From a virus: a DNA stretch of 30,263 bases. How positions within the stretch are numbered: position 1 is the first letter of the stretch; every line of letters starts with the position of its first letter. A program made the position numbers and the translations under genes. Below the pieces are notes generated by a model, which saw nothing but the letters and a program-made list of their open reading frames with translations, did not search any database and was not told the DNA's origin. Below, one piece after another: positions 3,484 to 24,299 of the stretch. The stretch is from positions 1 through 30,263 of the IMG/VR virus record IMGVR_UViG_3300012012_000195; one strand, written 5' to 3'.

Positions 3484-3939
3484 TTAATTTACAAATACAT
3501 ATTCATCACCACCGTTATCAACATACACACCCGCATTTTGCGCCCAGACATAGTAGTTAATCTCGGCATCTACTATCGCCCCATAGCCTGTAATAACTCC
3601 TGTAAATTTAACAAAATCTTCGCTAGTTCCACTAATCTCTAAAGATTCCAGAAATCCCTCACCTGCATCGCCCTCATTCGTATCTGTGTTAATCATTGAC
3701 CAGTCCATCATAGTCCTAGACCTGCCTAAATCTTTTAGCTGATCCCAACCTATTATTGCCTGATCTGTCGAATAAACCGCCTCAAAACTAATCGAATAAG
3801 AATGCAACTGTGGTAACTGCTTCTGAGCCATATCTTGCGTAGATTTGCAAGTTTTAATAAAGCTGATGCTCTCAGCTAGATTATTACTAAGCAAACACCC
3901 TACAGGCGTATCGTTTATATAAAGCATTAAATCAGTCAT
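3484..3939 (-). CDS. Tail-tube-like paralog 2 with C-terminal extension
   Basis: The 151-aa protein is clearly related to the next gene upstream (3932-4276) and to the major tail protein (8730-9200). Shared positions include LMLYIND-PVGCL at the N-terminus, the Cys-Lys of TCKSTQ, YSISFEAV, a GWDQLKDL helix, and GEGFLESLEISG followed by DFVKFTGVITGYG. After this common domain (about 1-118) it carries about 33 extra residues (YYVWAQNAGVYVDNGGDEYV) that the sister copy lacks. It may be a specialised tube, collar or tail-tip decoration that connects to the fibre encoded next. The start ATG (3937-3939) overlaps the upstream stop by 8 bases. Function is inferred only from fold similarity and position. 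Confidence 0.7.
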   Translation of the reverse strand: MTDLMLYINDTPVGCLLSNNLAESISFIKTCKSTQDMAQKQLPQLHSYSISFEAVYSTDQAIIGWDQLKDLGRSRTMMDWSMINTDTNEGDAGEGFLESLEISGTSEDFVKFTGVITGYGAIVDAEINYYVWAQNAGVYVDNGGDEYVFVN

Positions 3940-4276
3940 AGCCTGTTATATTTCCACTAAATTTAATAAAATCCTGCACCTCACCTACTATCTCTAAATT
4001 CTCTATAAATCCTTGCCCTTGCTCACCCTCTATGCCATCGCCTGTAATTTCCCAATCTATCTTAACTCTTTCAAGCGATTTTAAGCCTGTCCACGACATT
4101 ATATTATTGTCGGTAGTCATAACACCCTCAAAGGGTATAGAGTAGGTGTAGAGCCTCCCTAATTGCGTCTGACCGCCTGACTGTGTTGTCTTGCACGTTC
4201 CTAGAAAGGAAATCTGCTCTGATCTACTAACAGAGGTTAAACAACCTACTGGCATATTGTTTATAAATAGCATCAT
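3932..4276 (-). CDS. Tail-tube-like paralog 1
   Basis: This 114-aa protein consists almost only of the domain shared with the downstream paralog and with the major tail protein: MLFINNMPVGCLTS, TCKTTQ, YSIPFEGV, SWTGLKSL, GQGFIENLEIVG and DFIKFSGNITGYD. The YSIPFEGV stretch nearly repeats SFEIPFEGV in the 8730-9200 protein. It starts with two Met codons at 4276 and 4273; the first overlaps the tail-hub stop as ATGA. Being encoded after the hub rather than before the tape measure, it is likely a minor tail component at the distal end. An Ig-like or tube-like beta fold is the simplest model. Confidence 0.7.
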   Translation of the reverse strand: MMLFINNMPVGCLTSVSRSEQISFLGTCKTTQSGGQTQLGRLYTYSIPFEGVMTTDNNIMSWTGLKSLERVKIDWEITGDGIEGEQGQGFIENLEIVGEVQDFIKFSGNITGYD

Positions 4277-8729: not shown

Positions 8730-9200
8730 TTAGTAACCAGGGTATGGATCAGTTGTCGTAATATCGCCGTCACCTAGCAAAGTGCCAGTAAAGGTAATAA
8801 ACTCACCCTCTGCGCCTGTAATCTCTAAAGCACTAAAGTAAGCATAGCCAAACTGCGCACTAAAGTTAGGATCTTCTTGACCATTTGTAAGTAGTAAAGC
8901 CACCTGAAACTCAGTCAAAGTCTTTGCCCTTGCAATTGTGCTTATACGATCCCATGATGCTTTTGCAGTATCGCCACCTGCACCTGCCGTATCTGTGAAA
9001 ACACCCTCAAAAGGTATCTCAAAAGAATAGGTTGTCGGTTTGCGTCTGGTCACTCCAGGATCGCATTTAGTTACTGTCTCAGCAAAATCCCATGATTCGC
9101 TGATGCCGTTTGAAGTTAAACACGCTACTGGTTTCCATGCGCCACCTGTGCGAATGTAGAGCATGAATAGACTTCCTGCATAAAATTGTTCTGCTGCCAT
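8730..9200 (-). CDS. Major tail (tube) protein
   Basis: The 156-aa protein precedes the tail chaperones and follows the tail terminator, the standard position of the major tube subunit. The sequence is beta-rich, with FMLYI, ACLTSNGISESWDFAE, KCDPGV, YSFEIPFEGVFTDT and a C-terminal YFSALEITGAEGEFITFTGTLLGDG. The same framework recurs in two smaller proteins at 3484-3939 and 3932-4276. It should polymerise around the tape measure. The spacing to the downstream chaperone is one base, so the two are co-translated. Confidence 0.82.
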   Translation of the reverse strand: MAAEQFYAGSLFMLYIRTGGAWKPVACLTSNGISESWDFAETVTKCDPGVTRRKPTTYSFEIPFEGVFTDTAGAGGDTAKASWDRISTIARAKTLTEFQVALLLTNGQEDPNFSAQFGYAYFSALEITGAEGEFITFTGTLLGDGDITTTDPYPGY

Positions 9201-10171: not shown

Positions 10172-10499
10172 TATTATCATCCGTGACGGATGCCAGTATC
10201 TCATAAAATCTGAATGTATCATCTACATTCCTAATTGAATGAATAGTGAAAAAATTTAACTCATACAGAATCCTCATGTCCTTTGTAGGTGCAAAGTCTT
10301 TTCTATAACGAATTGTAAACCTAAAGACCTGATTTATGACTTGTTCTTGCGCTTGTAACTGTCTATTGCCATCGTATGGCTTTATATTTGACCATGTAGC
10401 CAAAACAGGCACAAACGTAATCACGTAATCCTGATAGGCATTTTCAACTGATGTGAACGTGCCAAATGTAATGCGCTTATCTAATCTGCCCGGATTCAT
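10161..10499 (-). CDS. Head-tail adaptor/stopper (SPP1 gp16-like)
   Basis: The 112-aa protein begins MNPGRLDKRITF, the classic start of phage head-tail joining proteins, followed by beta strands with ATWSNIKP and RFTIRYRKD, ending with a YEILASV strand. Length and order (after the connector, before the gp10-like protein) fit the neck stopper. It overlaps the connector gene by one base at 10499 and the next gene at 10161-10171. Confidence 0.8.
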   Translation of the reverse strand: MNPGRLDKRITFGTFTSVENAYQDYVITFVPVLATWSNIKPYDGNRQLQAQEQVINQVFRFTIRYRKDFAPTKDMRILYELNFFTIHSIRNVDDTFRFYEILASVTDDNNGS

Positions 10500-10999
10500 T
10501 AGAATAGAGTTATGCGTCTGTATGGAGAAAGTAACAAAGTTGCAATCGTAGGCATTCCAACAACTGGATTATCCCTGTTCTCATAATAGTAGGCTATCAT
10601 TTCTTTAATTGCAGTTTCTATATCATCTGGCACATCTGATCCGCCCTCATAATTCCATCCATAACCTGCTACAAACGTAACTGTATTAAATCCCGCCGTA
10701 TCTGAAATGACCTCTGTAAAGCCTTGCGTTTCGATTGTTTCAAATGTTAGCGCAACCATATCAGGATCTACCACAGTTTCAACTGAGATCAAAGGGTACT
10801 CATATATTTTAACTGCTCCAGAAACAGGCGTAATTAAACTCATTTGCCTTTGCCATAATACTTGTAGCGTAAACTGTTCAGCTTGATTTACCGCAGATTT
10901 TATCAATGAGGTAATTAATCCATCTTCTATTGTATAGTCTAGGTCTAGTCTTAGATACATTTTTGCATCTGCTAGGCTCACTACATTTAACTGGTCCAT
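10499..10999 (-). CDS. Head-tail connector (gp6/gp15-like)
   Basis: The N-terminus VSLADAKMYLRLDLDYTIEDGLI is split across two recognisable parts (SLADAKMYLRLD, then TIEDGLITSLIKSAV), the helical signature of phage connector/DNA-packaging adaptors that dock under the portal. The end has DIETAIKEMIAYYYENRD and SPYRRI, also usual. It is 166 aa. In most such phages it directly follows the capsid gene; here about 5.9 kb of glycan and modification genes separate them. A gap of 45 bases precedes it, with no exact TAnnTTTG box. In-frame TAA codons upstream of the ATG exclude a longer start. Confidence 0.82.
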   Translation of the reverse strand: MDQLNVVSLADAKMYLRLDLDYTIEDGLITSLIKSAVNQAEQFTLQVLWQRQMSLITPVSGAVKIYEYPLISVETVVDPDMVALTFETIETQGFTEVISDTAGFNTVTFVAGYGWNYEGGSDVPDDIETAIKEMIAYYYENRDNPVVGMPTIATLLLSPYRRITLF

Positions 11000-11044: not shown

Positions 11045-11989
11045 TTATATAATCGCTAAATTACATATTTTATTTAACCAATTTTCAAACTTTGGCAATT
11101 CCTTGACAGGATCTAATTCTTTTGCCCTCTCTAAAGGCGTTTTCTTAGTCTGTATTGTATCTATGTTACTAATAGCATCTATCCATCCATCTATATTGTT
11201 CCTCTCAACGAATATCCCTGCATCTGCGACGCTATCTCTAAAGCCTAGTATATCAGAGCAGATAACAGGAATATTGCAGCACAGAGCTTCTATTTGAGCC
11301 ATGCCATAACTCTCATACTCACTAGGTGCTATTAGCACTTTAGTCATTGCCAGATATTTGCGCACATCATCAATTAAAGGTACATATTTTATATTCCTGA
11401 CCTTTTCGTCTTTGATCTGATGATAGTAACCGCCTTGCACCGCTAGAAACTTTGTTTTAGGCATTCGCTTGGCTATGTCAATTAATATCTGACCGCCTTT
11501 GTTTTCGTTATGGTTTATCAGCGTCACGTACTCAGCATCTGGTCTAGCAGTTGAGTAATCTCTGTAATTAATCGGCGCATATAGCGTATAGGTTTCCTGA
11601 TTGTAGTTTAATTCTCGCTTTGTGTTCTCGCAGTTGTAAACTGTATAAGTATTTGGTCTGATATTAACCTGCGGATAACCTACGTTATTATGAGCAAAGT
11701 TTATAACCTTTTTAGCTTGCAGCCTTTGTTTATTCATTGCATAGTAAGTGCCTGACAGTTGACAAAACACTAGATCTGCCCAGTCCCATAAATCATTATG
11801 ACATTGCTTGTAATTGTCTTTAGCCTTGTAAACCTGTATGCCCTCGTAGGTATAATTCTCTGGGCATCTAGTAACTGCCTTAACCTCATGACCTTTGCTT
11901 ATTAGATAGGTTACAACCCGATGCAAATAGATTTCAGATCCTGCTCTCTGATGCGGTAAGTATATGCCTGGACTTAGTAAAATGTTCAT
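11045..11989 (-). CDS. GT-B glycosyltransferase, GT4-like
   Basis: The 314-aa enzyme should transfer a sugar from a nucleotide donor. The N-terminal Rossmann half starts MNILLSPGIYLPHQRAGSEIY with the Gly-Ser typical of group 1 transferases. The C-terminal half has NENKGGQIL (161-169) with the conserved Lys, and the E-x7-E motif in EYESYGMAQIEAL (E226, E234), followed by PVICSD. Cytosolic, with no membrane segment. It is the last gene of the modification cassette, and its start overlaps the DNA methyltransferase stop as ATGA (11986-11989). Acceptor unknown. Confidence 0.85.
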   Translation of the reverse strand: MNILLSPGIYLPHQRAGSEIYLHRVVTYLISKGHEVKAVTRCPENYTYEGIQVYKAKDNYKQCHNDLWDWADLVFCQLSGTYYAMNKQRLQAKKVINFAHNNVGYPQVNIRPNTYTVYNCENTKRELNYNQETYTLYAPINYRDYSTARPDAEYVTLINHNENKGGQILIDIAKRMPKTKFLAVQGGYYHQIKDEKVRNIKYVPLIDDVRKYLAMTKVLIAPSEYESYGMAQIEALCCNIPVICSDILGFRDSVADAGIFVERNNIDGWIDAISNIDTIQTKKTPLERAKELDPVKELPKFENWLNKICNLAII

Positions 11990-12618
11990 CTAAATAATTG
12001 AGTTTGTGCCATGTGGTTATTAATTCGTTTCATAGCCTGATCAAAATATTCCTTATCTAATTCACAAGCCGTTAAATCAAATCCATAATCATGACAGGCT
12101 ATTGCTATTGAACCTGATCCTAAATGAGTATCAAGTATTTTATCGCCTTGTTTTCCGTATTTGTCTAATAGCCATTTGTAAAGTGCTATTGGCTTTTGTG
12201 TTGGGTGTATTCGTTCTTCATCGGCTACAAATCCAGTTAATATTTGTATAGATACATAATCAACTTTTTTCTGACCTGAAACACTTGCTATTTCACATTG
12301 GCTTAAAGTATTTCCGCCTCTGTTTTTATACCAAACCAACGCACCGCCTTCGTTATTAAATGAGTTGAAGTAATTAGCACCCCAAATGATTTGTTTTTTA
12401 GATACTCTTTTCAGTTCCGCAAAATATTCATCACTTGGTATATTATCATCCCATTTCATTTCTTTATGAACCCTTTCAAGTTTACCTTTTTTTGCTCCAC
12501 TTGAAAATCCGATAAAAGTATCTCCAATTCCGTATGGTGGGTCAACTATTGCCAAATCAAAATACTTATCAGGATAACGTGCCATTAATAGCATATTATC
12601 TTCGTTTGTTATTGTCAT
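11986..12618 (-). CDS. DNA methyltransferase (N6-adenine/N4-cytosine, DPPY type)
   Basis: At 210 aa it has motif IV DPPYGIG (D26-G30) near the N-terminus, HPTQKP (138-143) and the SAM-binding motif ILDTHLGSGS (161-170) near the C-terminus. This order marks the beta-class amino-methyltransferases. It should methylate a short DNA site, probably protecting phage DNA from restriction. No restriction endonuclease is adjacent, so it is an orphan enzyme. Its location inside the glycosyltransferase run, with ATGA overlaps on both sides (12615-12618, 11986-11989), is unusual. Specificity cannot be read from sequence. Confidence 0.88.
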   Translation of the reverse strand: MTITNEDNMLLMARYPDKYFDLAIVDPPYGIGDTFIGFSSGAKKGKLERVHKEMKWDDNIPSDEYFAELKRVSKKQIIWGANYFNSFNNEGGALVWYKNRGGNTLSQCEIASVSGQKKVDYVSIQILTGFVADEERIHPTQKPIALYKWLLDKYGKQGDKILDTHLGSGSIAIACHDYGFDLTACELDKEYFDQAMKRINNHMAQTQLFR

Positions 12619-13220
12619 GTTACAGGAATAAACAGATATGGTCTTTGTATCTTTAATGTTCTGCCATCGTAATTATGCAGATCGCTTCTATGGTAGTGAA
12701 TAGCTTGTATTCTTGTAGCCGGATTATAAAGCGCATAACCTGCGCTATGTAACTCATAAGCAATCCGATTATCACAACCCGGTATGCCTAAATAAAAGTC
12801 ACAAAAATTAACATTGCGCATCTTGCCTTTAAATATCCAGACATCCTGACTAAAGCGCTCATTGTGTAACTTTAAGCCACCTATCTTATCATCCCACCTG
12901 CTTAACGCTATGCATTGCCGTTCATTTAAAGTCAACTGCCTCAGCGTATGATTAAAATAAATATCTGTATTTGCGACCATTGATATATCATCCCTGCTTG
13001 TGACTGTTCTATCTATCAGATTAAAAAAGTCCCTGTATGTAGGTCGCTGAAATGGTATAATTACTAATTTGTCAGAATTTGGCAACTCTACAAATCCATC
13101 AACAAAGAGATAAATTTTATCTATAAGCTGATTCTCTATGTTCTTATTCAGGCAGTAGATTAATTCTTTTTGCCTGATTGCGCTTTTATCGGTATAAATT
13201 GAAGTAAATAAATTAATCAT
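12615..13220 (-). CDS. Putative GT-A glycosyltransferase
   Basis: The 201-aa protein has an N-terminal alpha/beta unit (MINLFTSIYTDKSAIRQKEL) and, after two strands, VANTDIYF (82-89), which looks like the acidic metal/nucleotide-sugar site of GT-A enzymes. SRWDD and a PGCDNRIAYELHSAGYAL segment (145-162) follow, resembling acceptor-side motifs of small bacterial glycosyltransferases. No membrane helix. It overlaps the upstream methyltransferase by 8 bases and the downstream DNA methyltransferase by 4. Family assignment is tentative, by motif and neighbours. Confidence 0.62.
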   Translation of the reverse strand: MINLFTSIYTDKSAIRQKELIYCLNKNIENQLIDKIYLFVDGFVELPNSDKLVIIPFQRPTYRDFFNLIDRTVTSRDDISMVANTDIYFNHTLRQLTLNERQCIALSRWDDKIGGLKLHNERFSQDVWIFKGKMRNVNFCDFYLGIPGCDNRIAYELHSAGYALYNPATRIQAIHYHRSDLHNYDGRTLKIQRPYLFIPVT

Positions 13221-13767
13221 AAATAGCTATGCCTGTACCTGTATGATGTCCTATATGTGTTAAATCGTATTTTTCGTTTTTTAATCCATTCCAGAAATTA
13301 CTCATTTCATTGTTTAAATGAATGTCATCAAACATGACTAAGCCTTTGTAATCAATCTCTAGCAGATGATCAGCAAACTCCTGCTCAAACTCGCCATCGT
13401 GGTAAGTATCTAGCATAATAAAAGGACTTGCAATCTCATACTTCAAAACATTGCCTTTTATAAATTCTATGTTAGGTATTTTAATATCCTCAATCTCAGG
13501 CTGATGCTCAATGTCATAGCTGATAACTTTATTCTTTTTATTAAATGACAAAGCTATGGCAGAACTACCCTGATAACTTCCAATGTCCAACAAAGTAACT
13601 CCGTTAACTAAAGTGCTGATATAAGCTAACAGTCTGTAATGTTCTAGACCTGCATCCATGTAAAACCAGCCTTTGGGGAATCCCAAATCATCCGTACTTT
13701 TTAGATACTTAGACAGGTTGATTGCATTTAACTCCTCTGCGCTTACTTTTAATATTTTATCAATCAT
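13213..13767 (-). CDS. Class I SAM-dependent methyltransferase (Methyltransf_24-like)
   Basis: The 184-aa protein carries the SAM site TLLDIGSYQGSSAIAL (58-73; D61, G63, G67), an acidic end of strand 2 in VISYDIE (D85), and MFDDIH (145-150), the pattern of class I small-molecule or glycan methyltransferases. No DNA-target motif (DPPY, PCQ) is present, so a sugar or other small acceptor is more likely than DNA. Embedded between glycosyltransferases, it may methylate or cap a glycan. Overlaps: 8 bases at both ends. Confidence 0.75.
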   Translation of the reverse strand: MIDKILKVSAEELNAINLSKYLKSTDDLGFPKGWFYMDAGLEHYRLLAYISTLVNGVTLLDIGSYQGSSAIALSFNKKNKVISYDIEHQPEIEDIKIPNIEFIKGNVLKYEIASPFIMLDTYHDGEFEQEFADHLLEIDYKGLVMFDDIHLNNEMSNFWNGLKNEKYDLTHIGHHTGTGIAIYD

Positions 13768-14326
13768 ACTGCTTTAGTAAAAGGTTGTAATTTTTATGGT
13801 ATTTATCTATGGCATGATAACCTACTGAGCCATACTCAAACTCGGTTTCAACTGCAAACTTATTGCAGGTTGCCTTATCGGGTAACTTATAGCCTAATTC
13901 ACGCATCTTATTAGTAAAGTAAATATCTTCATTGCCATCTTTTTCCATGCCTTTGTACGGATGCTTTGCGCATATCTCATACATTAGCTTTGGATTGCGT
14001 ATGCTTAGACCTCCATTCATGCAACCCGGTATGTTCTTAATCCACGATCCTATAAAGTCCCATTCTAAAAAATCTTCAATGCCATCTTTTAATAATCCTG
14101 AATCATGCTGAAATATTAGCACCCTATCATATCTTGATCCTCGCCAAAAGTTAGGATTAGTTAGTATAGAGTTATATACTCTAGGCGTTTTTATGTAATA
14201 AATGCCACCTGCATAAGGCGGTTGAATATGTAGCAAATCCCATGACTTAGGTATAAACCTTTTATGTCTTGCGATTGCTTCCTGAGCCACATCTTCCCGG
14301 TCATCTATAATTATAGCTGCGTTCAT
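13760..14326 (-). CDS. DUF5672-like putative glycosyltransferase
   Basis: The 188-aa protein shows the pattern of the DUF5672 group: YDRVLIFQHDSGLL (66-79), where HDS is a likely DxD-type site, IEDFLEWDFIGSWI (83-96), and GCMNGGLSIRNPKLM (101-115). These are thought to be GT-A-like enzymes in glycan clusters. It lacks membrane segments. The start overlaps the GT2 gene stop as ATGA (14323-14326). Catalytic activity is inferred from motifs. Confidence 0.72.
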   Translation of the reverse strand: MNAAIIIDDREDVAQEAIARHKRFIPKSWDLLHIQPPYAGGIYYIKTPRVYNSILTNPNFWRGSRYDRVLIFQHDSGLLKDGIEDFLEWDFIGSWIKNIPGCMNGGLSIRNPKLMYEICAKHPYKGMEKDGNEDIYFTNKMRELGYKLPDKATCNKFAVETEFEYGSVGYHAIDKYHKNYNLLLKQYD

Positions 14327-15072
14327 ACTAAAACCTTGTTATAATTATGGTGACTCTTTAAATAGCTAGGTAAAATTGATTTATCAAATGGCACAGGATT
14401 CCATAAGTTCAACGCTACGCAATGCACATCATTAAACTGCTTATTAGGTTTCCATTTATAGAAACAATCATTTAACCAGTCTTTTCTAACCTCGTGAGCA
14501 TGACCGAATACATTATACTTGTATCTCATAATCGGCTCTGGCTGACAGGTGCTAAAATGATAAATAGTCTGCTTTAGGTTTAAATCCTGTGTATGCTCTT
14601 TCCTATGCAAATTTTCTAATCGTATCGGTCTAAAGCCATCATAACAAGCATAGTCAAAAGACCGCCAGAAGTTTACAAAACCATCAATGCCATAAAAGCG
14701 ATCTACGCCCCAATAAGCATATTCAAAAGACTTCTGTAATTCATCTGATTTATAAACTTCGTCTGAATCTACTGTAAGTACCAGATCATAGCCATCAGAG
14801 TATTTATACTTGACTGATCTATGCTCACTCTCAGCGCCATATCTGTCTGCCCTGTCCCAAATCATTTTATCTTTTAATACATCCTGACAAATGCTAAATA
14901 TATAACCCTCTGAATCTGGACATTGCAATAGCGTTCCATGACCTTGACTTGGCATCATGCTATAAGCAATTACCATTTTATCAACATGATCTACAACCGA
15001 CATAAGAGCCTCACGCAAGTAATCACCTGCATAGTGTATAGTCATAAATCCTAAAACTTTAATTTTGCTCAT
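14323..15072 (-). CDS. GT2-like glycosyltransferase
   Basis: The 249-aa protein begins KIKVLGFMTIHYAGDYLREAL, a short GT-A N-terminus, and has LVLTVDSDEVY (98-107) with the DxD pair D102 and D104 for metal and nucleotide sugar. FRPIRLENLH and the His-rich end HCVALNLWNP are additional features. No transmembrane region, so it probably acts in the cytosol on a soluble or protein acceptor. It overlaps the upstream gene by 14 bases and the downstream by 4. Confidence 0.75.
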   Translation of the reverse strand: MSKIKVLGFMTIHYAGDYLREALMSVVDHVDKMVIAYSMMPSQGHGTLLQCPDSEGYIFSICQDVLKDKMIWDRADRYGAESEHRSVKYKYSDGYDLVLTVDSDEVYKSDELQKSFEYAYWGVDRFYGIDGFVNFWRSFDYACYDGFRPIRLENLHRKEHTQDLNLKQTIYHFSTCQPEPIMRYKYNVFGHAHEVRKDWLNDCFYKWKPNKQFNDVHCVALNLWNPVPFDKSILPSYLKSHHNYNKVLV

Positions 15073-15973
15073 ATATCTCTAATAAATTCTTTACCATTTT
15101 ATCAAATGTATAATTAGCCTTGACAAACTCATTGCCTTGCTTTGCTATAAGATCCCGCTCCTCTTTATGGTCATCTAGATAGTATCTTAGCAATACCATT
15201 AAATCATATAGACTATTCCATGTCCTAACGTGAACATGATCTATAAAAGGCATATTAGGATAGGCTTTGCATAAACAGAACGCACCAGAACCTAGTATCC
15301 TATAAATCCTATCTGAGCTATATGAATCTTCGTCATAATGGCTTAGGTTAATGGCTATCTTTGTAGCTCTGTATGCTTTTGATTCCTCTGCCTGTGAATG
15401 GTTATAGTTACCGGCTACATTAAACCAGTTATTGCCGTAAACGCCATACTTATCGCCAAAATGTTTATGTAGCATAGTATTCATGTCTATTCGCAACCTG
15501 CTTAGCGGAAATTTATCGCCACCGTAATTATTACCAAAAAAAGAAATCTCTCTGCAATTACCTATCTCGCCCTCTGGCTTGTATATCTCAGGATCGTAAC
15601 CTATCTCTAAATATCCGCCGTTTACTACGTTTGCAACATCTCGCATATTAGAAAACAAAGTCTTATCTATATAAGGTGACATTGCAATCATCCATGCAGG
15701 AGTCTCATTTCGTATGTCGCCGTTCCAGTTACAAATCCATGCACCTGTTTCACGCATAGCCTTTACAGTTTCTATATGAATAATGTTAGGACTTTGTATC
15801 TGCATAAATATAATATCAGGCAAAAACTCTCTGGCTATTCTTATCGCTTCTTGGTTTACATCCTTTGCCCCTGTGGATAACTCTATGTAATCAGTACAGT
15901 TAGCTAGAAACGCTTTACGTGCTGAATCATTTGGCGGAGGTGCTACCATTAACCCTAAGTGAAAAATTCTCAT
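15059..15973 (-). CDS. GT-B glycosyltransferase (CgeB/Glyco_trans_1_2-like)
   Basis: The 304-aa protein has a Rossmann-like N-half (MRIFHLGLMVAPPP; LPDIIFMQIQSPNII) and a C-half with ISFFGNNYGG and SSDRIYRILGSGAFCLC (219-235), which matches the nucleotide-sugar site of the CgeB/spore-maturation-like GT-B group. The end, YTFDKMVKNLLEIYEQ, is also typical. No membrane anchor. It overlaps a small upstream ORF as ATGA (15970-15973). It resembles the GT4 enzyme only in fold, so the two probably add different sugars. Confidence 0.75.
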   Translation of the reverse strand: MRIFHLGLMVAPPPNDSARKAFLANCTDYIELSTGAKDVNQEAIRIAREFLPDIIFMQIQSPNIIHIETVKAMRETGAWICNWNGDIRNETPAWMIAMSPYIDKTLFSNMRDVANVVNGGYLEIGYDPEIYKPEGEIGNCREISFFGNNYGGDKFPLSRLRIDMNTMLHKHFGDKYGVYGNNWFNVAGNYNHSQAEESKAYRATKIAINLSHYDEDSYSSDRIYRILGSGAFCLCKAYPNMPFIDHVHVRTWNSLYDLMVLLRYYLDDHKEERDLIAKQGNEFVKANYTFDKMVKNLLEIYEQN

Positions 15974-16146
15974 ACTTTACGGATATTATCCCAATCTCTC
16001 AGGAAATCTAAAATTGATGGGTAATTCATACGACCTGCACCGCATTTTCTGCGGACATGAATCCAACCATTTATAACGCCAATACAGATAACATACTGCT
16101 GATTCTTGTATAATCCTGCTTGACCTATAAAATTGGCTTTAAACAT
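15970..16146 (-). CDS. Small protein, unknown function (58 aa)
   Basis: A 58-codon ORF runs from ATG 16144-16146 to TGA 15970-15972. It begins one base after the PP-loop gene stop (16148-16150) and its stop overlaps the next start as ATGA, so it fits the cassette with no spare bases. The sequence includes YVICIGVINGWIHVRRKCGAGR and ends SILDFLRDWDNIRKV; the first part (YVICIGVINGW) is strand-like. Two Cys and several basic residues are present. No family recognised; it may support a neighbouring enzyme. Confidence 0.65.
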   Translation of the reverse strand: MFKANFIGQAGLYKNQQYVICIGVINGWIHVRRKCGAGRMNYPSILDFLRDWDNIRKV

Positions 16147-16147
16147 A

Positions 16148-16852
16148 TTAATTAGTGCAACTGCAACTGTATGCAGGTAATTGTGAATCTAATTCAAATA
16201 AACTCATTTGATTTTTAGAAATATCTAACAAACTTTGATAGCTAATATCTTTAAAATAAGTAGCTCCTATTTCTTTTTCATCTGCAATCCATTTATCAGC
16301 AAGTTCTGGGTAATGTTGTAAAATTGTTATAATAGATGATTTGCCTTTTAAAAAGCATAAATCACAATTACCTAAAATTGATGGTATCTCTAAACTGTAA
16401 TCTTTAGATAACCAATATTGATTAACATCTGCTTTGCTTATACCCATATTATAAAGCGGAAATTTAGGTAATACTTTTTTATGAAATTGCTTGTACCCTT
16501 TTACTCTGCGTTCCTCATCTGACCTAAATCCTATATAACTTTCAAATGCTTGTATGCCTATTGACCTTAAATATCTTTTAGCAGTTTTTATCTTTAATTC
16601 AGTTGTGCAAATTCTCATTTGCTGATTAGGTAAAAACTTTACTTTTCTGACAAAAGCATCAAACTTACCCTTGTAGCTTATACGAGTGACTTTAATGCCC
16701 TCGTATTTTTCAAAGTCATCTATAAACTTGTATGTCAATGGATGCTCTCTGCCTGTATCTGTAAATAAAACAATATCGTTTTCTGTTGGCTTTAAAAGAA
16801 TAGTCATTAATGCTGATGTTTTACCACCTGAGAAATTGATTACCCTTTTCAT
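16148..16852 (-). CDS. PP-loop enzyme, PAPS reductase/DndC-like (adenine nucleotide alpha hydrolase)
   Basis: The 234-aa protein has the PP-loop NFSGGKTSAL (6-15), which binds ATP or adenylated substrates, then LFTDTGREHP (29-38) and YIGFRSDEERR (106-116). Cysteines C82 (RICT), C163 and C166 (NCDLC) and C230/C232 (CSC) could bind an Fe-S cluster or act in sulfur transfer, as in DndC and related proteins. No DndA, DndD or DndE partner is present, so phosphorothioate DNA cannot be claimed. It is the first gene of the cassette, preceded by a TAACTTTG box four bases from its ATG. The gene is very AT-rich (a sampled 60-base line is 20% GC) compared with the capsid gene. Confidence 0.75.
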   Translation of the reverse strand: MKRVINFSGGKTSALMTILLKPTENDIVLFTDTGREHPLTYKFIDDFEKYEGIKVTRISYKGKFDAFVRKVKFLPNQQMRICTTELKIKTAKRYLRSIGIQAFESYIGFRSDEERRVKGYKQFHKKVLPKFPLYNMGISKADVNQYWLSKDYSLEIPSILGNCDLCFLKGKSSIITILQHYPELADKWIADEKEIGATYFKDISYQSLLDISKNQMSLFELDSQLPAYSCSCTN

Positions 16853-16856
16853 AAAG

Positions 16857-16864
16857 CAAAGTTA
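16857..16864 (-). promoter_or_regulatory. Candidate -7 promoter element (TAACTTTG), nearly leaderless
   Basis: The minus strand reads TAACTTTG, an exact TAnnTTTG match, followed by CTTT and the ATG at 16852. Transcription from it would begin at or beside the start codon, giving a leaderless or very short leader. No TTTG is seen at the expected -33 spacing. It lies directly after the capsid terminator, so it could drive the modification cassette and the downstream connector and tail genes. Confidence 0.45.
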
Positions 16865-16888
16865 ATTATTTATATAACATAAAATAAT

Positions 16889-16920
16889 AAAAAAAACCTG
16901 TCAAATTAATGACAGGCTTT
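16889..16920 (-). terminator. Intrinsic terminator after the major capsid gene
   Basis: On the minus strand the stem CCTGTCA (16910-16916 complement) pairs with TGACAGG (16897-16903 complement) across a six-base loop, and eight T follow (16889-16896). It begins about 20 bases past the capsid stop at 16940. Perfect 7-bp stem plus T-tract is a strong factor-independent terminator. It separates the head operon from the modification cassette; partial read-through would lower tail gene dosage relative to capsid. Confidence 0.88.
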
Positions 16921-16939
16921 CTTCATTAAACCAAAAAAA

Positions 16940-18142
16940 CTAGCTTGGATTTGCATTAAGTGAACCAGTCACAAATGCATCTGTGTAGTAGATAGGTAGA
17001 GCAATACGACCTTCAACACGAACTGTAATCTTGTTTTCACGAACGTTAGTACCATCCTCCTCAAAGAAACGAACAATCGGATTCTCACGTACAAATAGTT
17101 GAGCACCTTTAGCCCAGTCGCCTACTAAGTACTTAGAATCGCTCATTGCAGTAGACTTAAAGATTGGAACTCCAGAGATAAACAACTGACCATTAACTAA
17201 GTCAACTGCAACTCCGCCTGGTAGCGTATAATCATTTGTAGTGCCTCTAGTAAGCATCAAAGCATAGAACTGCTCTGGACTTAAAAGAATACCATTTGCA
17301 GAGTGGTTGTTTGACTCAATTTGTGCAACTGAATCTAGTAACTTCTCAACCTGAATAGTACGAAATCCTGAGTAAGCCTCAGCGTTAGTAATCAAACCAC
17401 CTAATTGAGGCGATGTACCTGTACCGTTTAATAGTTGATTATCCTCAGCATCAAGATATTGCTCTAACAAACGAGATTGTAGATAAGAACGCATAGCTGA
17501 GATGTCATCTAAAGCCTTACGAGTAATACGCAAGAATCCTGCAATAAACTCAGATGGTGCAACCTCCTCAGTCAAATCATAATCAATCTGTGACTTGTTA
17601 CCAGAGTTATCTAAGAACGGAGAAACAGAACCCTCAGAACCTGTCTCCTGTAAGTAGTGAATTGCAGAAGTAGTCATAACGCCAGTAGGCAACAATGCTC
17701 TGATGTGCAACTTACGTGGTGCAGCAGGAATAATGCCCGGTAGCATCTGTACGTTAGCAGCAGCTAAGTCAGTAATGTTAGCTAGTGACATATCACCAAC
17801 TGTCTTTAACTCCATTGCAAATTGCTTGATTTCTTTTCTACGGAATTTCTCTAAGTTATCAGAGTTTTCATCCATTGCAGTAGCAAATGCCTGATTGAAA
17901 GAAACTGGCGATGCCTCTTTAGCATCCATTTTAATTCTGTTTGCTTCTGAGTTAGCCTCTAGCAATGCTTTATCCATTGCATCAATTCTAACCGATGTAG
18001 ATTTTTGCAATTCCTCTAGCTTAAGATCAGCTGCCTTTGTAGCTTCGCTGATAGCGTTTGCGATGATAGCCTTAGCCTCATCAATTGTTTTGGCTTTGTT
18101 TGCATCTAGCAACTCCTGAGCCTTTAATTCTAAATTGTCCAT
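16940..18142 (-). CDS. Major capsid protein, HK97 fold
   Basis: The 400-aa protein has an N-terminal, Ala/Glu/Lys-rich coiled-coil region (about 1-95), which acts as a scaffold-like delta domain and is normally removed by the protease encoded upstream. The capsid domain follows with PGIIPAAPRKLHIRALLP (134-151), EEVAPSEFIAGFLRITRKAL and the C-terminal strand KITVRVEGRIALPIYYTDAF, a hallmark of HK97-type shells. It lies two bases after the protease gene. It has no visible Ig-like decoration domain. A terminator follows its stop. Confidence 0.92.
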   Translation of the reverse strand: MDNLELKAQELLDANKAKTIDEAKAIIANAISEATKAADLKLEELQKSTSVRIDAMDKALLEANSEANRIKMDAKEASPVSFNQAFATAMDENSDNLEKFRRKEIKQFAMELKTVGDMSLANITDLAAANVQMLPGIIPAAPRKLHIRALLPTGVMTTSAIHYLQETGSEGSVSPFLDNSGNKSQIDYDLTEEVAPSEFIAGFLRITRKALDDISAMRSYLQSRLLEQYLDAEDNQLLNGTGTSPQLGGLITNAEAYSGFRTIQVEKLLDSVAQIESNNHSANGILLSPEQFYALMLTRGTTNDYTLPGGVAVDLVNGQLFISGVPIFKSTAMSDSKYLVGDWAKGAQLFVRENPIVRFFEEDGTNVRENKITVRVEGRIALPIYYTDAFVTGSLNANPS

Positions 18143-22973: not shown

Positions 22974-24299
22974 TCATTTTAAATAGCTAAATATATGTGC
23001 AATTACATCTACTGTCCAACCATTGCCTAGCATCTTATACCTTTGAGAATCGCTTACATGGTTTGTGTAATTATCTTTTACTGTTTGTAGGCGTTCACAT
23101 TCTAAAGGAGTTAGGCGGCGGATGCGTGAATTATTATTATTGTAAATCCCAATACCTTTAGTTTTTCCACCACATTGAGATAATAATGCTCTGTGTTTTT
23201 TTGATTTATCACTATTTGTAGGTATTGTTTGACTAAAATTCCAATCTGATATTTGAACTAAATTATCATTTGTGTGAGATGTAAGCAAAGCACCTATCTT
23301 GCCATCTGTTCTCTCTACTAATTCTTTTGCTCTTTTTGGATTAGTTCCTGTTTCCTTGCGTATTTGTTTGGCTGCATCTGTTCTTACTTCTGTTAAAGCT
23401 ACAATTTGGATTAAATCCATATCTGAATGATTGCCATGCCCATGACCTCCAACGCTCAATGAAGATGCTTTATCTTGATTATTTTTAACATTGCCTTGCC
23501 TATCTATTTTTATGTAATCTTGAGTTATAGGCATTTTACCCATTGAAGCCGTTAAACAAGCGCCTTTTTTTTCTCCATCTGTTGGTTTAAAATCAAATTT
23601 AAAATTTGAGTAACTTGATTTATTATTAAAATGATTTAACAATTTTTCACTCAAAAAATACTTATCATCAACCTCATTCTCCAAAACATCCTTTAAAAAA
23701 ATGCCTTTATCCTTTGGCTTTTGTATAATAGAAACTAAGTCACCAAACAATCCACCCGGTTGCATACCAATGTTAGTCCAATAAATCCTTTTACGATTCT
23801 GGGCAGATACTAAAGCTGAGTTAATATGAATACCATTCACTCCTATTGCTTTGCTCAATACCTTTTCCCATTTCTCGCCCATCTCTACATTTTCCAATAA
23901 AAAGTATTTAGGCTTACATTCGTTAAGTAATCTCATGAACTCCCAAAATAGATAAGACTGCCCCTCAAACTCATAGCCATCTGCTTTTAATTCCAGATAG
24001 TGTTCTAAGGTTAAAATCTCTGTTTCGCATTTAGTTGACATTCCTTTACGTTTACCTGCAAAACTAAATGACTGGCATGGAGAACCACCTATTAATAAAT
24101 CAATCTTAGGCAGATCAAAGCCATTTACATTTACTACGCTACCTAATTGCTTAGTATCTGGATAATTAGCCATTGTAACCTGCATGGCATATTTGTCAAT
24201 CTCAGATGCAAAGTAGTTATCTACTGTTATTCCTGCGCGTTCTAAAGCTTGTTGACCGCATGACATCCCATCAAATAGGCTTAATATGTTTAGTTTCAT
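22974..24299 (-). CDS. DNA (cytosine-5) methyltransferase
   Basis: At 441 aa it has the motifs in order: SAM site LSLFDGMSCGQQALE (6-20), catalytic GGSPCQSFSF (71-80; C75), LLENVEM (134-140), QNRKRIYW, a variable target-recognition region in the middle (about 200-380), and the C-terminal RRLTPLECERLQTV with KMLGNGWTV. All appear intact. It methylates cytosine at a site set by the variable region, protecting phage DNA from host restriction. No partner endonuclease is present. Parts are very AT-rich (a sampled 60 bases near 23581 is 17% GC), suggesting recent acquisition. It lies between the candidate origin and the packaging genes. Confidence 0.93.
   Translation of the reverse strand: MKLNILSLFDGMSCGQQALERAGITVDNYFASEIDKYAMQVTMANYPDTKQLGSVVNVNGFDLPKIDLLIGGSPCQSFSFAGKRKGMSTKCETEILTLEHYLELKADGYEFEGQSYLFWEFMRLLNECKPKYFLLENVEMGEKWEKVLSKAIGVNGIHINSALVSAQNRKRIYWTNIGMQPGGLFGDLVSIIQKPKDKGIFLKDVLENEVDDKYFLSEKLLNHFNNKSSYSNFKFDFKPTDGEKKGACLTASMGKMPITQDYIKIDRQGNVKNNQDKASSLSVGGHGHGNHSDMDLIQIVALTEVRTDAAKQIRKETGTNPKRAKELVERTDGKIGALLTSHTNDNLVQISDWNFSQTIPTNSDKSKKHRALLSQCGGKTKGIGIYNNNNSRIRRLTPLECERLQTVKDNYTNHVSDSQRYKMLGNGWTVDVIAHIFSYLK

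Follow-up and report, generated by a model that had tools for sequence, protein, structure and literature searches.

A conserved glycosyltransferase cassette between the capsid and adaptor genes of a metagenomic tailed phage: a candidate pathway for a capped oligosaccharide on the virion

Background

What is a run of glycosyltransferase genes doing between the major capsid gene and the head-tail adaptor gene of a tailed phage? The question is raised by the 30,263-base viral record IMGVR_UViG_3300012012_000195 (hereafter the window, meaning the whole stretch that was analysed), which encodes, on its minus strand, a tailed phage of the HK97 type with the order terminase, portal, morphogenesis protein, protease, capsid, cassette, adaptor, neck and tail. 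The capsid-to-adaptor gap of 5,940 bases is filled by nine minus-strand genes (11045-16852). In an earlier reading of this DNA, here called the original prediction, they had been described as a nine-gene glycan and methyl-transfer cassette for sugar decoration of virion proteins or of DNA. Here we present a comparative analysis in which the conserved unit emerges as a six-gene core with one exchangeable tailoring slot. The core genes probably encode soluble enzymes that together assemble a short oligosaccharide straight onto a virion protein, likeliest a head protein and perhaps the capsid protein. The transferase set recurs beside the head genes of unrelated phages; therefore, a small capped sugar chain on the phages' own particles is probable.

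Virion glycosylation is thought to be rare in tailed phages and has been documented mostly in mycobacteriophages. If our proposal is correct, glycan-coated virions would be common among metagenomic phage lineages, and the question would become what such a coat hides from or binds. The module would also be a source of soluble protein glycosyltransferases. From the promoter type and the Cellulophaga- and Bacteroides-type homologues, the host is presumably a member of the Bacteroidota.

Results and discussion

The cassette and its conserved core

The cassette, its entry side and its flanking genes are listed here in the direction of transcription.

16940-18142, minus strand: major capsid protein, HK97-type (phrog_10, E=7e-38); flank and possible acceptor
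16853-16939, minus strand: terminator hairpin and TAnnTTTG (-7) box, the box 4 nt before the next ATG; between the capsid gene and the cassette
16148-16852, minus strand: PAPS-reductase-like PP-loop protein (PAPS_reduct above the Pfam cut-off, phrog_424); sporadic accessory, non-core
15970-16146, minus strand: 58-aa protein with an invariant RKCGAG motif (no Pfam match); core
15059-15973, minus strand: CgeB-like GT-B glycosyltransferase (Glyco_trans_1_2, PF13524, above the Pfam cut-off); core
14323-15072, minus strand: GTA249, GT-A glycosyltransferase with an invariant DxDE motif (no Pfam family; predicted fold nearest SunS/ThuS); core, candidate initiator
13760-14326, minus strand: DUF5672 protein, putative GT-A-like transferase (PF18922 above the cut-off); core
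13213-13767, minus strand: class I methyltransferase, putative sugar O-methyltransferase (weak, sub-threshold Pfam match); tailoring slot
12615-13220, minus strand: G201, small GT-A glycosyltransferase with an NxD motif (no Pfam family; predicted fold); core
11986-12618, minus strand: N6/N4 DNA methyltransferase, DPPY type (N6_N4_Mtase above the Pfam cut-off); accessory
11045-11989, minus strand: GT4 GT-B glycosyltransferase (PF00534/PF13692 above the Pfam cut-off); core
10499-10999, minus strand: head-tail adaptor (phrog_40, E=4e-16); flank

The original prediction had these nine open reading frames (ORFs) exactly right in position and strand, including the junctions, which are 4-14 base overlaps or a 1-base gap, and its 5.9 kb between capsid and connector agrees with the measured distance. 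Its five putative glycosyltransferases of several fold types are likewise predicted here, two being GT-B enzymes by Pfam, two GT-A enzymes by structure prediction and one the DUF5672 protein.

Relatives were collected from the viral collection by capsid and by CgeB similarity, and the two sets mostly came from the same contigs. The close relatives are all metagenomic contigs, many of them fragmentary. Compared records carry locus labels beginning with L, among which L308 is Streptomyces phage TurkishDelight and L262 is Cellulophaga phage phi17:1. Gene content was established by gene calling and clustering. The calls followed a longest-ORF rule; the G201 gene of the L120 contig escaped it but was detected by tblastn (L223). 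A locus was counted as complete when it ran from the capsid through the adaptor gene (n=32).

The genes for the 58-aa protein, CgeB, GTA249, DUF5672, G201 and GT4 are all present in 32 of the 32 complete loci, in which the capsid-adaptor interval spans 4.05-5.94 kb. The position between DUF5672 and G201 is a variable slot, occupied among 53 loci by the methyltransferase (29), a GP88-like gene (3) or a hexapeptide acetyltransferase (3), and empty in the remaining 18. Small ORFs intrude between core genes without displacing any of them. Median dN/dS of the core genes is 0.056-0.108, compared with 0.092 for the capsid and 0.072 for the adaptor gene; every core gene is thus under strong purifying selection, comparable to that on the capsid and adaptor genes.

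The PP-loop and DNA methyltransferase genes are sporadic, each occurring in 2 of the 32 complete loci, which rules out the nine genes as a single unit. The nine packed genes of the original prediction do exist, but these two are passengers that fall outside the glycan system to which they had been assigned. Its idea of methyl capping is supported.

Two ORFs resembling, by eye, a GIY-YIG endonuclease (L079:3204-3803 and L120:9652-10410) stand beside GTA249 within the glycosyltransferase module of two unrelated phages; such ORFs are a possible way for the module to spread.

In 25 more distant capsid relatives, cultured Cellulophaga phages among them, the adaptor follows the capsid gene directly (18 by hidden Markov model, 7 by a same-sized ORF), in keeping with the premise that the connector normally lies close behind the capsid gene; one relative, L294, has a GT4 gene between the two. 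Given this arrangement in the distant relatives, the cassette seems to be a trait derived within a clade, and the site is one at which other phages, too, have transferases. In L240, GT4 follows the capsid gene and the remaining transferases lie between the morphogenesis and protease genes.

The module beside head genes of unrelated phages

Profile searches reached more distant carriers, whose flanking genes were assigned with PHROGs. Four, or three, of the G201, CgeB, GTA249 and DUF5672 genes stand in similar order next to genes for the head or for packaging in several groups of unrelated phages, usually accompanied by a methyltransferase related to that of the window (hhalign E=1e-7) and/or the acetyltransferase. 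The set follows a protease, a putative capsid and a 189-aa protein in L186, L225 and L251-L260; it lies upstream of terminase-portal genes in L191, L196 and L200 (phrog_6681), upstream of other terminases in L181 (phrog_3717) and L229 (phrog_10250), and before a portal gene in L190 (phrog_7376). It is also present in the L182/L184 group, where the neighbours have no PHROG match, and about 3 kb from a phrog_38 terminase on the contig of L261. G201 and CgeB are fused in L240 and L255, and the longer G201 proteins of L191, L196, L241 and L246 carry extra domains that by eye are like other glycosyltransferases, that of L191 having no Pfam match.

In L246 (IMGVR_UViG_2883623797_000002) the extra G201 domain is C-terminal and the gene lies downstream of a phrog_29 capsid gene. 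The contig identifier suggests an isolate genome and could provide a pointer to a cultured host.

Outside these records the module is scarce. Among 84,980 bacterial and archaeal genomes, a scan limited to the patterns used gave one match to GTA249, located on the L261 contig; as this contig carries the phrog_38 terminase, the match is probably viral. Deposited phages yielded no nucleotide match and few, weak protein matches, and close relatives of the module are almost lacking among the 50,697 phage records deposited. The enzyme set was not described in the literature searched, where DUF5672 was mentioned only for type VII secretion effectors. The original description of an unrecognised system is therefore sustained for the enzyme set and its near absence from deposited phages, but not for virion glycosylation by phage glycosyltransferases as such, which has been published for mycobacteriophages.

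The chances seem to us evenly balanced that the small GT-A, CgeB, SunS-like GT-A and DUF5672 enzymes represent a mobile and widespread pathway, exchanged among unrelated and presumably mostly Bacteroidota phages, which would provide a constant virion oligosaccharide core with an interchangeable methyl or acetyl cap and be a bacterial-virus counterpart of chlorovirus capsid glycosylation.

Predicted enzymes and their likely acceptor

Diverse alignments served to predict the structures of G201 and GTA249, an approach that the original prediction had proposed for its enzymes. G201 (predicted local distance difference test score, pLDDT, 94) adopts a GT-A fold with its best Z of 14.1 to chondroitin synthase, followed by WrtF, SpsA and polypeptide GalNAc-transferases (Z 11-14). 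GTA249 (pLDDT 93) is likewise a GT-A fold, with best Z values of 13.3 to ThuS and 12.8 to SunS (peptide glycosyltransferases; 185 residues) and with WrtF and GalNAc-transferases as its next neighbours. Invariant acidic motifs, D102xD104E105 in GTA249 and N84xD86 in G201, accompany these folds, and on fold plus metal/nucleotide motif both proteins are predicted to be GT-A glycosyltransferases. The DUF5672 protein matches PF18922 at 89 bits against a gathering score of 24 and is a putative GT-A-like glycosyltransferase. Sequence-profile searches of the PDB with CgeB, DUF5672 and the methyltransferase gave no useful match; the GTA249 profile gave a single weak one (E=0.01), SunS not being listed, to GmaR, the flagellin glycosyltransferase and antirepressor of Listeria.

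SunS and ThuS, peptide S-glycosyltransferases, are the nearest solved folds to GTA249 but share only 10-14% identity with it, and we do not claim membership of that family. These enzymes glycosylate Cys residues of small peptides (glycocins; PMC6405829). The 58-aa gene, upstream of the transferases and present in all complete loci, encodes an invariant Cys35 and the invariant RKCGAG motif, so that the acceptor might be a short protein or peptide of the phage, possibly this one, the resulting glycopeptide decorating the particle or acting in the host. We consider this highly improbable: no leader peptide, protease or exporter was seen, and no homologue of the 58-aa protein was noticed in the unrelated phages with four transferases, among which a dedicated profile search was not made.

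The highest 19-residue hydropathy in the cassette proteins is 1.4, that is, none has a membrane segment, and the original view of enzymes without membrane anchors holds. This bears on the reading that the enzymes alter the host surface glycan during infection, for superinfection exclusion or receptor masking, and stand in the late operon by chance. Glycosyltransferases of temperate phages do alter the host surface, as in GtrABC serotype conversion, and enzymes of the CgeB and GT4 families are known from bacterial polysaccharide synthesis. Yet neither the membrane flippase and transferase set nor the temperate lifestyle of GtrABC-like systems is apparent here: besides the missing membrane segments, the integrase PF00589, present in 2 of 19 records overall, is absent from the window and from the six long relatives closest to it, and the polyprenyl-phosphate sugar transferase PF02397, the initiator on lipid carriers, was found in 0 of 17 records. 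Together with the repeated position of the module beside head genes in unrelated phages, this makes a role at the host surface unlikely.

The DNA branch of the original prediction fares worse. Some viruses are known to encode glycosyltransferases for DNA hypermodification (Pyle 2024, cited in PMC12619734), and the sugars might go on phage DNA, with hydroxymethylated cytosine or uracil glycosylated by several transferases. The window does encode a C5-cytosine methyltransferase (22974-24299), which would be one of the two steps of a TET route to hydroxymethylcytosine, and the L258 record has a Tet_JBP-like dioxygenase above the Pfam cut-off (G016:C1:2941-3366). But that record is the only one of 19 with Tet_JBP (PF12851) above the cut-off, the thymidylate-synthase-type hydroxymethylase PF00303 reaches it in 0 of 19 phage records, some of which may be fragments, and the window has neither family above it. 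DNA as acceptor is disfavoured because nearly all carriers lack genes for a pyrimidine hydroxymethylase or a TET enzyme; acetyl or methyl tailoring and the SunS-like fold also indicate a different one. We regard DNA glycosylation as very unlikely. Both it and host-surface conversion are less likely than a glycan on virion protein, the part of the original proposal that we retain as probable, favoured by a glycan pathway lying among virion genes, by its positional conservation and selection, and by its recurrence at head genes.

Proposed pathway

In the virion-protein pathway that we favour, the SunS-like GTA249 would put the first sugar on a side chain, and G201, CgeB, DUF5672 and GT4 would extend the chain from host nucleotide sugars. 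The enzyme of the exchangeable slot would then methylate or acetylate the sugar chain. As this enzyme is exchangeable, the core would be constant and the exposed cap would differ between phages; such cap diversity might mask the particle surface or make it variable, or else adjust attachment.

Several points weigh against this pathway. Position and fold are no proof of substrate. Similarity to the SunS fold does not demonstrate a peptide acceptor, GT-A folds being widely shared, and in several groups the module stands at terminase or portal genes and not at the capsid gene. The cassette has its own promoter (see below), so its expression need not coincide exactly with that of the head genes. 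Comparison of the capsid protein with that of a cassette-less relative revealed no obvious new tail or loop as acceptor site, and other virion proteins, or the 58-aa protein, are possible acceptors.

Comparison with known systems

The closest published precedent is that of mycobacteriophages (Che8 and others), in which, to judge from the passages of PMC12619734 and PMC11256854 that cite Freeman et al. 2023, phage glycosyltransferases glycosylate capsid and tail-tube proteins to give a glycan shield. Those too are double-stranded DNA tailed phages with phage-encoded glycosyltransferases; the virion glycan was observed there, whereas here it is proposed from genes. The present system differs in having five transferase families plus methyl or acetyl tailoring directly between the capsid and adaptor genes. 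The Che8 relative Maravista has its glycosyltransferase genes close to the 3' end of the genome (PMC11256854).

The logic of the cassette resembles that of chlorovirus PBCV-1, where cytoplasmic virus enzymes (A064R, A111/114R) make a conserved five-sugar core with variable decorations, and where A064R adds rhamnoses plus a methyl group capping the terminal rhamnose (PMC7826918). Several soluble virus-encoded transferases, a conserved core (the six genes of all 32 loci) and a variable decoration slot would correspond. PBCV-1 is a green-alga virus with an N-linked glycan, and the resemblance is one of logic only.

Two cultured phages offer partial parallels. Gene 20 of TurkishDelight is the nearest deposited-phage homologue of GT4 (26% identity, E=2e-35 for the pair, two homologous places in the record) and lies between gene 17 (capsid) and gene 23 (head-tail adaptor), but no CgeB, SunS-like GT-A, DUF5672 or methyltransferase is annotated near it. 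Phage phi17:1, whose capsid is about 32% identical to that of the window, carries in its head module gp41-gp42, a Methyltransf_24 protein and a TOD1/MUCI70-type transferase; this two-gene set stands between the minor capsid and protease genes, while the capsid and connector genes are adjacent, without a cassette.

The phi17:1 pair occupies L262:1274-2946, its Methyltransf_24 member being annotated as a DNA methylase, and similar-sized pairs occur in the environmental relatives L263-L271, L276 and L278. The phi17:1 pair may represent an independent module for virion glycans, here in a phage that has been cultured.

A probable transcription start and an insertion hotspot

Both elements that the original prediction had placed at the entry side are upheld by comparison. 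The hairpin with its T-run after the capsid stop folds with z=-3.85 (0 of 200 shuffles equally good), and 4 of its 11 pairs show two-sided, pair-preserving change in 11 relatives. Downstream of the capsid stop, 67 of 75 loci have the TAnnTTTG box, the Bacteroidota -7 consensus, where chance would give 15% (random 150-nt stretches) or 19% (shuffled regions); in 56 of the 67 an ATG follows 3-4 nt further on. The -7 box together with the leaderless-type start makes a separate transcription start for the cassette probable.

The stretch from this promoter to the 58-aa gene (window 16146-16853 and equivalents) is an insertion hotspot, holding the PP-loop gene, a tRNA-Ile (L078), tRNA-like elements and small orphan ORFs in different phages. 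The tRNA-like elements directly behind the cassette promoter are at L018:9706-9821, L062:9870-9984, L065:4585-4705 and L069:5755-5873 (Rfam tRNA 35-39 bits), and further ones are at about 2212-2340 in L061 and about 3227-3331 in L047. ARAGORN predicts none of them. Their acceptor stem, tRNA-Leu-like D-arm and T-arm are conserved, whereas the roughly 65-75 nt from D- to T-arm are wholly divergent between phages, with no obvious anticodon arm.

Other features of the window

The C5-cytosine DNA methyltransferase gene at 22974-24299 is closely followed by a small ORF and the gene for the terminase. Additionally, the three proteins encoded at 3484-3939, 3932-4276 and 8730-9200 form one sequence cluster, and two of them match the major tail protein family phrog_1407.

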